24,400 nucleotides of DNA from a virus. The notes below the pieces were generated by a model. The model was not told the origin of the DNA and ran no database searches. It saw only the letters and a list, made by a program, of their open reading frames with translations. This document shows positions 3,609 to 20,882 of this stretch, in pieces. Numbering within the stretch: the first letter of the stretch is position 1; each line of letters begins with the position of its first letter. The position numbers were made by a program, and so were the translations under genes. Location of the stretch: positions 1 through 24,400 of IMG/VR virus record IMGVR_UViG_3300020001_000007; one strand, written 5' to 3'.

Positions 3609-4316
3609 TTAAAGTGTATATTTAAACCTCAAGTTGAACGTGTGGGCAGTTGGCTTGAAAGAAAACCCTCCAGCTGTATCTATTTTAATATTCATGATGG
3701 CAGGATAATTGATAACTTCATATTCGATGCCAATTCCAAAATTCTTGTTAATGAAATAATCTATACCACCGCCAATCAGGATGCCTTTTTGTACCCTATG
3801 TATGCTTGCGATGTCCTTTGGATTTAAAAGATAATTTTGATTTCTGAAAGTCAATGCAAAGCGGCTTAATGCTATTCCTGATTTTAGGTAAAATACATTG
3901 TTGCAATGGACAAACCCGATTTTTGCGGCAATGCCCCCCTTGTGATTGTTTTTCATATACATAAAATAGTTAATGTAACCTGGAAGGCTATTCTCTTCTT
4001 TTTCAATGACAATGTTGGCGTATTGGTAAAAACCTTCTACTGCAATATAAAGATTTCTATCAAAAATCTTTTGGTAACCAGCAAAAATACCTGTTGCGAG
4101 ACCCTTTTCTCCAATACTTATTACCCTGTCAGATATCTGAAAGTTAAGGGTTCTATTCAATTGTCCTACAAGAGTGCTATACCCAAGGCCTAATCCGCCA
4201 TAAAATCCATCATTGATGGTAGAAACTTTATTAAGGCGCGGCTCGCAAGAGATACTCACGTTTGCGTTAGCTGCTATAAATAAAGTTAATATAAAAACAA
4301 ATAGTTTACTGATCAT
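3609..4316 (-). CDS. Outer-membrane beta-barrel protein
   Basis: A 235-residue protein with a Sec signal peptide (MISKLFVFILTLFIAANANV, cleavage probably near residues 17-20). The mature part has alternating hydrophobic/polar strands typical of small eight-stranded barrels: a first strand 'GFYGGLGLGYSTL', a 'YFINKNFGIGIEYEV' strand near the C-terminus and a last strand 'HTFNLRFKYTL'. This fits the OmpA/opacity-type surface-antigen superfamily common in intracellular alphaproteobacteria. It is the last gene of the leftward recombination operon, 40 bases after the 208-residue gene, with a GAGGG ribosome site. Phage-encoded barrels such as lambda Lom modify the host surface during lysogeny; that role here is inference. 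A second unrelated-looking barrel is encoded at 20214-20882. Confidence 0.75.
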   Translation of the reverse strand: MISKLFVFILTLFIAANANVSISCEPRLNKVSTINDGFYGGLGLGYSTLVGQLNRTLNFQISDRVISIGEKGLATGIFAGYQKIFDRNLYIAVEGFYQYANIVIEKEENSLPGYINYFMYMKNNHKGGIAAKIGFVHCNNVFYLKSGIALSRFALTFRNQNYLLNPKDIASIHRVQKGILIGGGIDYFINKNFGIGIEYEVINYPAIMNIKIDTAGGFSFKPTAHTFNLRFKYTL

Positions 4317-9206: not shown

Positions 9207-10271
9207 ATGTCCTATATTACTGAAAGACCTGATAAAATTTCAGGGCTTTCCCATATCTTCTCCCCACTCCCCAACTGGATTCTGTCAAGAAAAGAGATAA
9301 GTTCCAATGCTAAAATGATTTACGCTCGCCTTTTGCAATACAAGGGGAAGAAAGATCATGCTTATCCCAGGCGTCAGGAACTGGCTGATGAGTGTGGCCT
9401 TGAGGTCAAAACAGTTGCAAGAGGTCTGCAGGAGCTTAAAAAAAACAATCTTATCTTTGCAGAACGGCGAGGGAATGCCCGCTCAAATGCTTATAAATTC
9501 CTTGTGCATCCCTGGATGTCAGATGGGAAGACATACAAATCTAAAAGCGTAGAGGCACAAGTCACTTCTATTGACAAAATTGATGGGACAGATTTGTCCT
9601 CTCAAAACAAAATTGATGGGACAGATTTGTCCTCTCATGATGGGACAGATTTGTCCCATCCCTATGAAAAGATAATTGAAAATAAAAAAGTAGAAGAGAA
9701 AAGGGATTTTTCGACAACATCTTATGATTTTAAAAAAGAGTTCAAAGAGGAATTCGAGGAGTTTTGGAATGAATATCCCCTCAAACGTCACAAAAAGCTT
9801 ACCTCCACGAATTTTATAACAGCCAGGGAGATAGCTTCTTTTGCCGATATCATGAAAAAAGTTAAATCTTACAAACGCATGGCTCAACACAACAATGCAG
9901 AGAAATTTTATATGAGCTCCCACAAATGGTTAGAGGAAGAAAGGTGGAATGATGATTACGGGGAGTTTGAGAAAGAGTGGAAAGCCACAGAAGCCCTCCT
10001 TGTTGCCTCTGTTCTCCCCGAGGAATACAAGGATAATTGGGAAATAATTTCAAAGCAGCTTAAGGAAAGGAAAGGAAAGGCACTACACAAATCCTGGTTT
10101 GAAAAGATATGTCTGGCATGCGTAAAAGGGGATACAGCTACGATTTACACTGCTGGACGATTTGTCAAGAATTATACCGCACAACATTTTTCCTCAGATA
10201 TCCTTCCCTTAATCCAGGATATTTACCCGAGTGTAAGCCATTTGAAATTCAAGGTGATTCCTCCCAAGTGA
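9207..10271 (+). CDS. Phage replication initiator (lambda O-like arrangement)
   Basis: A 354-residue protein in three parts. Residues about 15-105 form a winged helix of the HTH_36/O-type: 'WILSRKEISSNAKMIYARLL', then 'AYPRRQELADECGLEVKTVA' and a 'RGLQELKKNNLIF' recognition region. Residues about 122-155 are a repetitive linker, 'KIDGTDLSS' twice plus 'DGTDLS', encoded by DNA iterons. The C-terminal half has the 'FEEFWNEYPLKRHKK' and 'SSHKWLEEERWNDD' motifs frequent in phage and plasmid initiators. It ends in about 75 residues (W274 onward) resembling DnaA domain I ('LHKSWFEKICLACVKGDTAT', 'AGRFVKNYTAQHF'), which in DnaA contacts the helicase. No separate helicase or loader gene is visible, so it probably binds the internal origin and recruits host DnaB. 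Confidence 0.82.
   Translation: MSYITERPDKISGLSHIFSPLPNWILSRKEISSNAKMIYARLLQYKGKKDHAYPRRQELADECGLEVKTVARGLQELKKNNLIFAERRGNARSNAYKFLVHPWMSDGKTYKSKSVEAQVTSIDKIDGTDLSSQNKIDGTDLSSHDGTDLSHPYEKIIENKKVEEKRDFSTTSYDFKKEFKEEFEEFWNEYPLKRHKKLTSTNFITAREIASFADIMKKVKSYKRMAQHNNAEKFYMSSHKWLEEERWNDDYGEFEKEWKATEALLVASVLPEEYKDNWEIISKQLKERKGKALHKSWFEKICLACVKGDTATIYTAGRFVKNYTAQHFSSDILPLIQDIYPSVSHLKFKVIPPK
9574..9660 (+). repeat. Iterons of a probable replication origin inside the initiator gene
   Basis: Two identical 31-base copies lie at 9574-9604 and 9607-9637 (period 33), and a third partial copy at 9638-9660. All share the 19-base core TGATGGGACAGATTTGTCC. Each core contains the dyad GGACA-GATT-TGTCC. In the third copy the arms extend to nine bases (GATGGGACA/TGTCCCATC). 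The next 80 bases (9661-9740) are A- and purine-rich, as in a DNA unwinding element. Lambdoid origins have the same arrangement: iterons within gene O followed by an AT-rich stretch. The repeats also keep frame, giving the KIDGTDLSS peptide repeat. Confidence 0.75.
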
Positions 10272-10618: not shown

Positions 10619-11011
10619 CTACGGCCTTCTATGAGCGTTTTTGATGGTAGGCCGATTTTCGCGAAATGTTTGAGCTTCTATGCTGAACCTTGCAACAAGA
10701 TTGGCTTCCAGGCGATTTATGCCGATTGGCTCACCTGTTTGTTCACAATAACCGTATGTCCCGTCTTCTATGCGCTGCAACGCTTGTTCTATGTTGCGGA
10801 GGGTTTTATGCTGTCGGTCTTGTTCTTTTATTTCGATATTGCGGGAAATTTGATTTGCTACTACATCAAAAAAATCTATATCTGGTTTAGTAGAAGGGTA
10901 ATTTTCTGTTTTCCGATTTTCCAGAATGTTTTGCTTCCACTTCAAGAGCCTATTCTTGAAATGTTCTAACTGGTGAGAAGTTATATAACTTTCAGAATCC
11001 TCATAAACCAT
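10619..11011 (-). CDS. dksA: DksA/TraR-family transcription regulator (single-Cys type)
   Basis: A 130-residue DksA homologue. The coiled coil runs from about 12 to 82, with a tip acidic pair D46-F-F-D49 matching the DxxD that reaches the RNA polymerase active site. The globular part is 'RIEDGTYGYCEQTGEPIGIN' followed by R100, L101 and E102. Only one of the four zinc cysteines is kept (C89); the others read T92, F109 and A113. This matches the alphaproteobacterial 'SIEAQ' type rather than E. coli DksA. The N-terminal coiled coil appears several residues short. DksA binds the polymerase secondary channel and, with ppGpp, reprograms stable-RNA and amino-acid promoters. A phage copy probably redirects host transcription. 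A promoter and a terminator hairpin precede it. Confidence 0.88.
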   Translation of the reverse strand: MVYEDSESYITSHQLEHFKNRLLKWKQNILENRKTENYPSTKPDIDFFDVVANQISRNIEIKEQDRQHKTLRNIEQALQRIEDGTYGYCEQTGEPIGINRLEANLVARFSIEAQTFRENRPTIKNAHRRP

Positions 11012-13525: not shown

Positions 13526-13786
13526 TTATTTTTCTTCTGATATTATAATAGTTGCGATAGCAGGTTTAAAAATGAGGCACAAAGTTTCTTGATTCCTCTC
13601 TGTTTTCTTCAAGATAACTGAAGAATTGTCAAATTCACAGACAATTCCATGTAGTTTAATGCCACTTACGAGGTATATAGTCGCATTATGACCTGTCTTA
13701 AATATGTTTTTAATGAATACGTCTTCTATATTATTAATCACCTTAGAACTCACCACTTCCTCCGTTTTAAATAATTTTTTCCACAT
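13526..13786 (-). CDS. Hfq-like Sm-fold RNA-binding protein
   Basis: An 86-residue protein whose residues 20-82 align with Hfq. 'IEDVFIKNIF' matches the N-terminal helix (LQDVFLN in alphaproteobacteria). 'ATIYLVSGIKLHGIVCEFDN' matches Sm1 (...IYLVNGIKLQG.I..FD). 'LCLIFKPAIATII' matches Sm2 (QMVYKHAIST). The Sm1 Asp, the distal-face Tyr and the proximal-face Lys are kept, but the conserved His of YKHA is Pro (P75), and three or four extra residues sit between Sm1 and Sm2. Hfq is a hexameric RNA chaperone pairing small RNAs with mRNAs. The ATG was chosen because GGAAAGG precedes it; a longer frame starts at TTG inside the previous gene. A dominant-negative, phage-specific or host-mimicking role is possible. 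Confidence 0.8.
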   Translation of the reverse strand: MWKKLFKTEEVVSSKVINNIEDVFIKNIFKTGHNATIYLVSGIKLHGIVCEFDNSSVILKKTERNQETLCLIFKPAIATIIISEEK

Positions 13787-13803
13787 TTTTTTTGCCTTTC
13801 CTT

Positions 13804-14073
13804 TTAAATAAAACAACGACTTCTTTCATAATAATCTTCTATATCATTAACCACATTTGTGAGGAAGGATAGTAATGATTTTTGACTGCACGATCTCTTA
13901 TCATAATTAATTGACCCGCCTGCATCAATAATGTACGCACTATAATAATCTGGTTTTTCTCTTAAATGAGCTATTGCCTTACCGTTCTTAGTAATATCGT
14001 ATTGAGACTGAGAATTTTCAAAAGTATTATGGGTTTCATATACTTCATATCCTTTTATTTTAAGTGGCTTCAT
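13804..14073 (-). CDS. Hypothetical protein, 89 residues
   Basis: The start was placed at the second ATG (MKPLKIKGYEVYE), which has GAGGA 8 bases upstream inside the end of the preceding gene; the first ATG lies before that site. The first half is strand-rich ('YEVYETHNTFENSQSQYDIT', 'AIAHLREKPDYYSAYIIDAG'), the second a helix 'SLLSFLTNVVNDIEDYYERS'. It follows the antitoxin-like gene immediately, where a toxin would usually be. However, it lacks recognisable RelE/YafQ signatures, so I do not call it a toxin. Confidence 0.55.
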   Translation of the reverse strand: MKPLKIKGYEVYETHNTFENSQSQYDITKNGKAIAHLREKPDYYSAYIIDAGGSINYDKRSCSQKSLLSFLTNVVNDIEDYYERSRCFI

Positions 14074-14074
14074 T

Positions 14075-14452
14075 TTATTTTTCCTCTTCATTGTTGTTAA
14101 GTCGCACTTTAACTTTGAATGGTAACCCTTGGTGTCGGATTATTTCATTGTAAAAAATATTGAATAAGGAGGTAGGCGTTAATCCTAATGATTTTATGAT
14201 CTTATCGGCCTCTTCCTTGATCTTTTTGTCAATGCGGCACATATATCCAACCTTTTTTTCCTTATTATGTTGAGGAATATCAAAGGGAATTTGCCTATTT
14301 TCTATTATCATTTCATAAAATAGTTTAATCACAGAAGTAGGAGTGTATCCTAACTTTCGTATAATTTTTTCTGCTTCTTTTTTAATTTCCTTATCTATAG
14401 TAGTAGATAAATATGAAACCCAAGTAGATGAAACCCATTTTTTCTTAATCAA
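14075..14452 (-). CDS. Tandem RelB/DinJ-type ribbon-helix-helix protein (orphan antitoxin-like)
   Basis: A 125-residue protein made of two copies of the RelB/DinJ DNA-binding fold. Residues 14-59 read 'YLSTTIDKEIKKEAEKIIRK', then 'LGYTPTSVIKLFYEMIIENR' and QIPFDI. Residues 70-115 read 'YMCRIDKKIKEEADKIIKSL', then 'GLTPTSLFNIFYNEIIRHQG' and LPFKV. Normal DinJ/RelB proteins carry one copy and dimerise, with the N-terminal strand entering the DNA groove; here one chain would form a complete dimer-like unit. The short C-terminus lacks a toxin-wrapping tail. The start is a TTG with GGAG 10 bases upstream, since no earlier ATG exists. No RelE/YafQ-type toxin is adjacent, so it may be a repressor or an antidote to a host toxin. 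Confidence 0.78.
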   Translation of the reverse strand: MIKKKWVSSTWVSYLSTTIDKEIKKEAEKIIRKLGYTPTSVIKLFYEMIIENRQIPFDIPQHNKEKKVGYMCRIDKKIKEEADKIIKSLGLTPTSLFNIFYNEIIRHQGLPFKVKVRLNNNEEEK

Positions 14453-14509: not shown

Positions 14510-15094
14510 TCAACTAAGTTTGTCATGTGAGTCCTCCTTAATTATAAAACCGTAACCGTAACTGGAACCGTAACCGTAACCGGAACCGTCACCGGAACCG
14601 GAACCGGAACCGGAACCGGAACCGGAACCGGAACCGGAACCGGAACCGTAACCGTAACCGGAACCGTCACCGGAACCGGAACCGGAACCGTCACCGGAAC
14701 CGGAACCGGAACCGTCACCGGAACCGGAACCGTCACCGGAACCGGAACCGTCACCGTCACCGTAACCGGAACCGGAACCGGAACCGGAATAAGCTTTCCA
14801 TGGCTTTACATCCTTAATTGCTTTCTGAGCAATATCAGAAACTTCTAATATTTCTTTAGCATCCAAGATAATAATTACCGGAACTTCTGATGGGAATTTA
14901 CAATTATCTGGTTTTTTGGGTCCTGTTACAGAAAGTTCTGAAGCTGATGCGGCACCATCCCAATACCATAATCTACGGACATTCAATAGTTTTACTACTG
15001 TTCCTTCAATATTCTCTAATGTTCCAGAAAAAAGCCCAGAATTCATGCCACGCACTATCACATATTTACCTTTTAATTCAGATCCTATCATCAT
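14510..15094 (-). CDS. DUF6948-like protein with C-terminal Gly-Ser/Asp/Tyr repeats
   Basis: A 194-residue protein. Residues 1-102 match a phage family I know as DUF6948: 'GKYVIVRGMNSGLFSGTLEN', 'VRRLWYWDGAASASELSVTG', and PDNCKFPSEVPVIIILDAKE followed by PWKAY. Residues 103-182 are pure dipeptide repeats (GS, GD, GY), ending with a short unique tail IIKEDSHDKLS. The function is unknown. The N-domain looks like a small strand-rich fold, and the tail should be disordered and mildly acidic. AAGGAAGAAAG precedes the ATG, and a good leftward promoter lies upstream, making this the first gene of the cassette with the antitoxin-like and Hfq-like genes. Confidence 0.7.
   Translation of the reverse strand: MMIGSELKGKYVIVRGMNSGLFSGTLENIEGTVVKLLNVRRLWYWDGAASASELSVTGPKKPDNCKFPSEVPVIIILDAKEILEVSDIAQKAIKDVKPWKAYSGSGSGSGYGDGDGSGSGDGSGSGDGSGSGSGDGSGSGSGDGSGYGYGSGSGSGSGSGSGSGSGSGDGSGYGYGSSYGYGFIIKEDSHDKLS
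14549..14789. repeat. Hexanucleotide tandem repeat array
   Basis: About 40 units of the form CCGGAA, CCGTAA or CCGTCA run through the end of the DUF6948-like gene. On the coding strand they read as Gly plus Ser, Tyr or Asp codons. Higher-order blocks such as 'GGAACCGTCACC' recur, so unequal exchange or slippage probably shaped the array. It is far more GC-rich than its surroundings. Length variation in steps of six would keep the frame. Confidence 0.9.
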
Positions 15095-20213: not shown

Positions 20214-20882
20214 ATGTTAAAGAATTTATTTTTTGTTTCACTCAAGGCATTTGCTGTTTTTGGATTGTTAGCGAACTTCTCAAACGCAAATGCAAACAAT
20301 CCTTGGGAGCAGCGTTTCTACGGAGGACTTTCCTTGGGAGGAGCTTCCTTAAACACACAAAATAATTTATCCGTTAGAAGTTCACAAATTTCTAAAAAAA
20401 CAAATGATACCAATGTTCATGGGGAGTTAATTGGTGGATATGAGATTTCCAATCAGAATATCTTTCTAGCTCTGGAAACTGATATAGGCTTATCAAGCGC
20501 AGCAACAGAAGAATTGTTAACCCTGGCTGGCATTCAACATCCTTTTACAATTGAATCAAAAAATGGATTTGGTTTTGCTGCCCATATAGGAAAATCTATT
20601 GATGAAAATCACAGGGTTTACCTTAAGTTAGGGATTGAAATCAAGAAATTCCAGACAGAACTGAAAGGTCTAAACCGTTTTACAGATCATAAGAAATCAT
20701 TTAATGGGATAGGTTTCGTTCCTGGGATAGGAATAGAAAAGAAACTGACTGACACGGTAAATTTCAGGACAGAGTATAAAGTTTCCCTTTATTCTGCTAA
20801 AAAGCTTGTTTCCGAGCATACTACTCATACTATCAAGACAGTAACACATCATCTAACGGCAGGGTTTTATTTCAAGACATAA
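20214..20882 (+). CDS. Second outer-membrane beta-barrel protein
   Basis: A 222-residue protein with a clear Sec signal peptide (about 1-27, hydrophobic 'AFAVFGLLANFSNANA' ending in an AxA-type site). The mature protein begins NNPWEQRFYGGLSLGGASL. It shows strand repeats ('ELIGGYEISNQNIFLALETD', 'GFGFAAHIGKSIDENHRVYL', 'IGFVPGIGIEKKLTDTVNFR') and ends 'HHLTAGFYFKT', a C-terminal strand with alternating aromatics. This is the same general class as the barrel at 3609-4316, but the two share little direct sequence. It follows a terminator on the same strand. Late or lysogenic surface alteration, adhesion or superinfection blocking are possible roles. Confidence 0.75.
   Translation: MLKNLFFVSLKAFAVFGLLANFSNANANNPWEQRFYGGLSLGGASLNTQNNLSVRSSQISKKTNDTNVHGELIGGYEISNQNIFLALETDIGLSSAATEELLTLAGIQHPFTIESKNGFGFAAHIGKSIDENHRVYLKLGIEIKKFQTELKGLNRFTDHKKSFNGIGFVPGIGIEKKLTDTVNFRTEYKVSLYSAKKLVSEHTTHTIKTVTHHLTAGFYFKT

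Follow-up and report, generated by a model that had tools for sequence, protein, structure and literature searches.

GGACA dyads within a phage initiator gene, conserved as DNA across reading frames, as a probable replication origin

A cluster of three GGACA-N4-TGTCC dyads, located in the linker-coding part of a gene for a winged-helix initiator, very probably constitutes the replication origin of the phage carrying it: winged-helix dimers would bind the dyads, an A-rich stretch would open, and the C-terminal parts of the protein would bring in DnaB. Our analysis establishes the repeats themselves, their conservation at the DNA level across reading frames, the covariation of recognition helix and iteron, and the domain content of the initiator. 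The DNA analysed (hereafter, the window) comprises all 24,400 bases of an IMG/VR virus record, in which Pfam and PHROG scans recognised genes for RecT, RusA, YqaJ exonuclease, portal and terminase. The record thus represents either a tailed phage or part of a prophage and, since it may be a fragment, another origin could be located elsewhere.

The initiator gene (9207-10271, plus strand) encodes 354 aa, comprising a winged helix, an iteron-coded linker, a helical 'FWxxYP' domain and a DnaA domain I-like tail, and has RusA, DksA-like, RecT and YqaJ genes as its neighbours in the window. The winged helix (9294-9455, plus strand; aa 30-83) was matched by Pfam to HTH_36 (PF13730; 1.4e-9, 38 bits against a cut-off of 25) and modelled by AF2 with pLDDT >90, and the initiator was also matched by phrog_270 (replication initiation protein; 5e-26). 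With an N-terminal HTH_36 domain and similarity to phage initiators, the protein is, judging from its sequence, an HTH_36 phage replication initiator (PF13730/phrog_270); the dyads repeated in its linker, 3' of the winged helix, are a typical, although not strictly defining, trait of such initiators. The recognition helix is EVKTVARGLQEL, with K68 and R72 at the two positions conserved in the helix table, R72 being nearly invariant. The linker (aa 110-171) is predicted to be disordered (AlphaFold pLDDT below 50). The helical domain (9717-9971, plus strand; aa 171-255, 'EEFWNEYPLK..'), with AF2 helices at 177-228 and weak matches to phrog_9327 and phrog_10293, resembles a small protein encoded beside a DnaB-type helicase in another locus (L007). 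A tblastn search with the full-length initiator against phages and plasmids gave no match, the relatives from the whole-protein search were C-terminal ones only, and Foldseek with the whole model returned nothing below 1e-3.

Other minus-strand genes of the window encode a DksA/TraR-like zinc-finger protein (10619-11011), a phage-encoded Hfq-like protein (13526-13816; PF17209, 9e-14), a protein with two RelB-like stretches (14075-14452), and a protein in which a DUF6948 domain is followed by a long GS/GD/GY dipeptide repeat (14510-15094). The phage record also carries two OmpA-like outer-membrane beta-barrel genes (3609-4316, minus strand; 20214-20882, plus strand).

Two identical 31-base repeats (9574-9604 and 9607-9637) and a third, partial copy (9631-9661, 71%), with starts spaced by 33 and 24 bases, lie in the linker that joins the winged helix (aa 30-83) to the C-terminal part, as the preliminary description of this DNA had reported. 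The three copies share, also in agreement with that description, the 19-base core TGATGGGACAGATTTGTCC with its dyad GGACA-GATT-TGTCC, and all are on the plus strand: iteron 1 at 9581-9599 (dyad at 9586-9599), iteron 2 at 9614-9632, with a core identical to that of iteron 1 and a 31-base unit, 9607-9637, identical to 9574-9604, and iteron 3 at 9638-9660 (core at 9638-9656). Iteron 3 has the strongest dyad, the perfect nine-base one noted earlier, with arms GATGGGACA and TGTCCCATC around GATT at 9639-9660. The repeats keep frame, as had been read, and encode KIDGTDLSS twice and then DGTDLSH. They are followed by the A-rich stretch that had likewise been pointed out (9662-9721, plus strand; GC 0.27, A 0.52), which adjoins iteron 3 and is, by analogy with lambda, a candidate unwinding element; the 50 bp starting at 9661 rank in the bottom 4-5% of the record for GC. 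The 15-mer GGGACAGATTTGTCC occurs three times in the record, always at these repeats; with up to 3 mismatches, 6 matches were found (3 sites, both strands) against 0.6 expected, and none of 100 shuffles reached 6. No further copy of TGATGGGACAGATTTGTCC was found elsewhere in the 24.4-kb record. DnaA-box matches with one mismatch are scattered over the window, with none near the repeats. The GC skew of the record changes sign near 9 kb, which is uninformative on the origin because the genes also switch strand there.

Within the window, the three sites are all in one frame, and three sites in a single frame cannot separate selection on DNA from selection on peptide. When the same peptide was randomly recoded with synonymous codons 200,000 times, three dyads appeared in none of the recodings and two dyads in 42, a result that by itself is no proof of DNA-level selection, since tandem duplication would also give repeated dyads. 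We therefore rely on comparison with other genomes. The exact 15-mer GGGACAGATTTGTCC is present in 26 other viral contigs, several of which carry winged-helix initiator ORFs with dyad clusters in the linkers, including one gene with dyads in all three frames (L012). Paired GGACA-N4-TGTCC dyads, defined as two dyads 4-34 bases apart and hence limited to spacings of 18-48 bp, were found at at least 120 viral loci, compared with 8 for a reversed control pattern. Using a homologue profile grown from the first 115 residues of the window initiator, we found an ORF homologous to its winged helix at 92 loci among the matches listed; among these matches, the exact dyad lies inside 88 of 93 winged-helix-homologous ORFs, mostly 17-62 aa after the domain, and HTH_36 is the Pfam assignment for 56 of the 61 dyad-bearing proteins aligned. 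Loci found through the dyad were picked by the motif, so that counts of the dyad in them are biased, whereas reading frames and domain content are not.

Among the matches listed, dyads occupy two frames in 38 and three frames in 14 of 65 non-redundant genes (52/65 together), and encode, depending on the frame, GTDLS/GTKMS, DKNVP or GQKCP. Dyad spacings, again among the matches listed, peak at 21-24 bp (115/171) and 31-34 bp (19/171), approximating DNA turns, and are distributed modulo 3 as 72/50/49, with no preference for multiples of 3 beyond that. Third codon bases differ by 10-15% in the dyad arms versus 27-29% elsewhere in the gene (the pairs not being independent), and the bases outside the GGACA arms vary freely. 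The nearest relative of the N-terminal half of the window initiator (L345; 40% over aa 17-143) has CGACAAATATGTCG twice and one near copy; an outer base of the dyad is changed symmetrically on both arms, and the peptide reads TNMS versus TDLS in the window. Thus, whichever of the three frames it falls in, the dyad is kept in homologues while the peptide changes, the opposite of a conserved peptide over a drifting DNA core, the outcome which the preliminary description had set against its reading. On these comparisons, the conservation of the dyad reflects selection on DNA, not on peptide.

Among doublet loci from genome_contigs, a related winged helix was found in only 8 of 118, with the dyads within it in 6, so that the DNA pattern alone is not diagnostic in cellular genomes. 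Pairs of GGACA-N4-TGTCC were observed in Verrucomicrobia, Planctomycetes, Acidobacteria and Fimbriimonadales (L153-L270 of genome_contigs), with no related winged-helix ORF near them in the stretch fetched. In L018 (3195-3230) and L033 (985), the dyad has CI-like/S24 or other regulator-like genes as neighbours and is perhaps an operator.

To relate the iterons to the protein, we considered initiators found by protein similarity alone. Such initiators often adjoin DnaC/DnaB genes, and most of them carry short repeats of other sequences in the same linker: TTAACA-N4-TGTTAA in Lactobacillus phage c5 and a Monoglobus plasmid, TTGAC-N6-GTCAA in a staphylococcal phage, GGCCA-N4-TGGCC in a Geobacillus phage and TGACA-N4-TGTCA in Leuconostoc phage LLC-1. 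In this protein-found set, a recognition helix of the form [KR]-x3-R (in the aligned 12-mer, K/R at position 3 and R at position 7) is present in 10 of 10 unique helices accompanied by GACA dyads versus 2 of 20 without them, kinship being ignored; the two exceptions are L306, which has degenerate dyads, and the Geobacillus phage with GGCCA. The window helix EVKTVARGLQEL (K68, R72) fits the pattern. A Fisher test inside the motif-found loci is uninformative because nearly all of them carry the motif. Furthermore, genes of the L308/L309 type share 84-94% DNA identity upstream and in the C-terminal part and 69-75% over the winged helix and iteron linker, a drop indicating that the two were exchanged together. 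This covariation of helix and iteron, along with the clean module swap, supports the view that the N-terminal domain recognises the repeats.

We are somewhat inclined to a wider reading, namely, that there is a large set of HTH_36 initiators whose genes reveal the origin: a [KR]-[TSQH]-x-x-R helix would specify GGACA-N4-TGTCC iterons in its own linker and other helices other dyads, helix and iterons would move as one cassette, and the present, probably alphaproteobacterial, branch would have captured DnaA domain I and would recruit host DnaB without a phage loader. In a group of Firmicutes and Fusobacterium phages (L281, L283, L285, L287-L290, L292), a conserved AT-rich stretch, AATAATACAAGTATTAATAATACA (peptide ENNTSINNT), directly follows the iterons and is likely to be the unwinding element in those phages. 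An HTH protein of Caedibacter taeniospiralis pKAP298 (L370) has a linker with six 21-base tandem repeats (DKTGKKM), which are probably the in-gene origin of pKAP298.

Alternatively, the dyads could be an autoregulatory operator, at which the winged helix binds its own gene and blocks transcription, with the origin located elsewhere. The dyad class can indeed occupy operator-like places, being found near the CI-like repressor gene in L018 and just upstream of the initiator ORF in L089. However, the window sites lie ~380 bp inside the gene rather than at a promoter, the record has no dyad elsewhere, the linker position is constant over the family, and lambda, pSK41 and Tuc2009 have their origins at this very position, which makes an operator in place of an origin improbable; roadblock regulation and origin function could coexist. 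Far less probable is that KIDGTDLSS is a functional peptide repeat produced by tandem duplication, with the DNA dyad incidental. The identity of two copies over 31 bases and the common frame of all copies in the window gene are what such a duplication predicts, but the reading is contradicted by the use of all three frames in the family (GTDLS, DKNVP, GQKCP), often within one gene, as well as by the predicted disorder of the linker, the constraint on third codon bases and the lack of three dyads in any of the synonymous recodings. Equally hard to credit are RNA hairpins or an intrinsic terminator on the antisense strand: although a consensus scan gives terminator-like minus-strand sites at iterons 1 and 2, we rejected this reading because the sites are about as many as in shuffles (3 versus a mean of 2.3), the stems have 5 pairs only, and the bases outside the GGACA arms vary freely, unlike in a selected long hairpin. 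Least probable of all is a spreading palindromic repeat that landed here by chance, in the way that palindromic elements are inserted in Rickettsia genes: the repeats are palindromic, in frame and in a probably alphaproteobacterial context, but there is no other copy in the record, and the reading is contradicted by the family-wide picture: in many phages, the dyads are tied to a single protein family and a single position, are spaced at roughly helical turns and vary in sequence with the recognition helix.

The C-terminus of the initiator, overlooked in the preliminary description, is, by its profile matches, a homologue of DnaA domain I (10035-10217, plus strand; aa 277-337; Pfam DnaA_N, 1.5e-7, above the cut-off). 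Residues 270-353 match DnaA-length ORFs in >50 of 385 alphaproteobacterial genomes, the match of the tail to TIGR00362 is weak (5e-5), and the tail aligns with domain I of Bacillus subtilis DnaA (4tps; E 0.03), with the Trp and the RF-motif Phe kept. Phe46 and Glu21 of Escherichia coli DnaA contact DnaB (PMC5448010); the equivalent of Glu21 is not obviously kept in the tail, for which AlphaFold confidence is low. Scanning part of the window ORFs gave no DnaB/DnaC-like Pfam or PHROG match and no lambda P-type partner loader; as no helicase or loader was recognised among these ORFs, it is plausible that the tail recruits host DnaB directly. Fusions of a winged helix with DnaA_N are found in a few alphaproteobacterial genomes (L395, L404, L406), are rare in viral collections and, among the 61 aligned dyad-bearing proteins, are unique to the window; no relative of the DnaA-like tail was found in viral_contigs. 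L396 is also among the initiator-like proteins with a C-terminal DnaA_N in alphaproteobacterial genomes, and several such genomes have more than one extra DnaA_N gene.

For the proposed in-gene origin, we envisage that N-terminal winged-helix dimers would bind the three GGACA-N4-TGTCC dyads, the spacing of which, about two and three DNA turns, would allow an O-some-like complex to form. Such a complex would strain the adjacent A-rich stretch (9662-9721), which would open, and the C-terminal helical domain together with the DnaA domain I-like tail would bring in the host replicative helicase, DnaB. The KIDGTDLSS peptide would act as a disordered tether; its repetition is a side effect of the DNA sites and does not point to a second function.

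The in-gene origin plan is itself already known from lambda O, pSK41 RepA_N, Tuc2009 and pPR9, in-gene origins having been described in a handful of models. The widely shared dyad, the correspondence between helix and iteron, and the DnaA tail may be new; no description of the shared dyad and helix correspondence was found in the open-access papers searched. Because the dyad and the matching recognition helix recur across many unrelated phages, such origins should be predictable from sequence, and origin finding in uncultured phages would become sequence prediction. The match of dyad and helix offers a natural code for protein-DNA recognition that is open to testing; in addition, a disordered linker can accommodate one DNA site in each of its three frames, and specificity cassettes appear exchangeable between phages with the helicase-recruiting part unchanged.

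Among known systems, chromosomal DnaA has a domain I homologous to the window tail; unlike DnaA, the window initiator has no AAA+ or DnaA-box domain and carries domain I at its C-terminus. The preliminary description had compared the arrangement with lambda gene O, and the same plan does hold (PMC7466680), with pSK41 RepA_N and pPR9 equally close (PMC5703833). Lambda O with ori-lambda, and its Stx phage relatives, share iterons in the middle of the initiator gene beside an AT-rich tract (PMC7466680), the layout seen in the window, and lambda O likewise has an N-terminal DNA-binding part and a C-terminal helicase-recruiting part; the window initiator shows weak profile similarity to 'O-like' PHROGs. 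However, the iteron sequence differs, and lambda has a separate P protein whereas the window has the DnaA domain I-like tail. With no P-type loader found among the window ORFs scanned, the window origin would work like that of lambda O without being a member of its type. The Rep of Lactococcus phage Tuc2009 (orf16, annotated 'contains origin of replication') has linker repeats 22 bp apart; the GGACA dyad is absent from Tuc2009 and TP901-1. In pSK41 RepA_N, the winged helix-turn-helix of the N-domain binds boxes in the centre of the rep gene and the linker peptide is dispensable, but the protein belongs to the RepA_N domain family and its DnaD-like C-domain binds primase (PMC5703833). Pfam gave no RepA_N (PF06970) match in the window initiator, and Foldseek lists the initiator structures 4pql, 4pta and 4pt7 for the window model with weak E-values. 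In pPR9, the pSK41 N-domain and origin have given way to a pfam13730 N-domain with its origin, and the mini-replicon works (PMC5703833). The pPR9 Rep (gene read in L371) differs from the window initiator in its pSK41-type C-domain and in repeats that are not GGACA dyads, and shares with it direct repeats in the linker and an HTH_36 N-domain swapped with the origin as one module. The joint swap of helix and iterons in L308/L309-type genes matches this published module replacement (PMC5703833).
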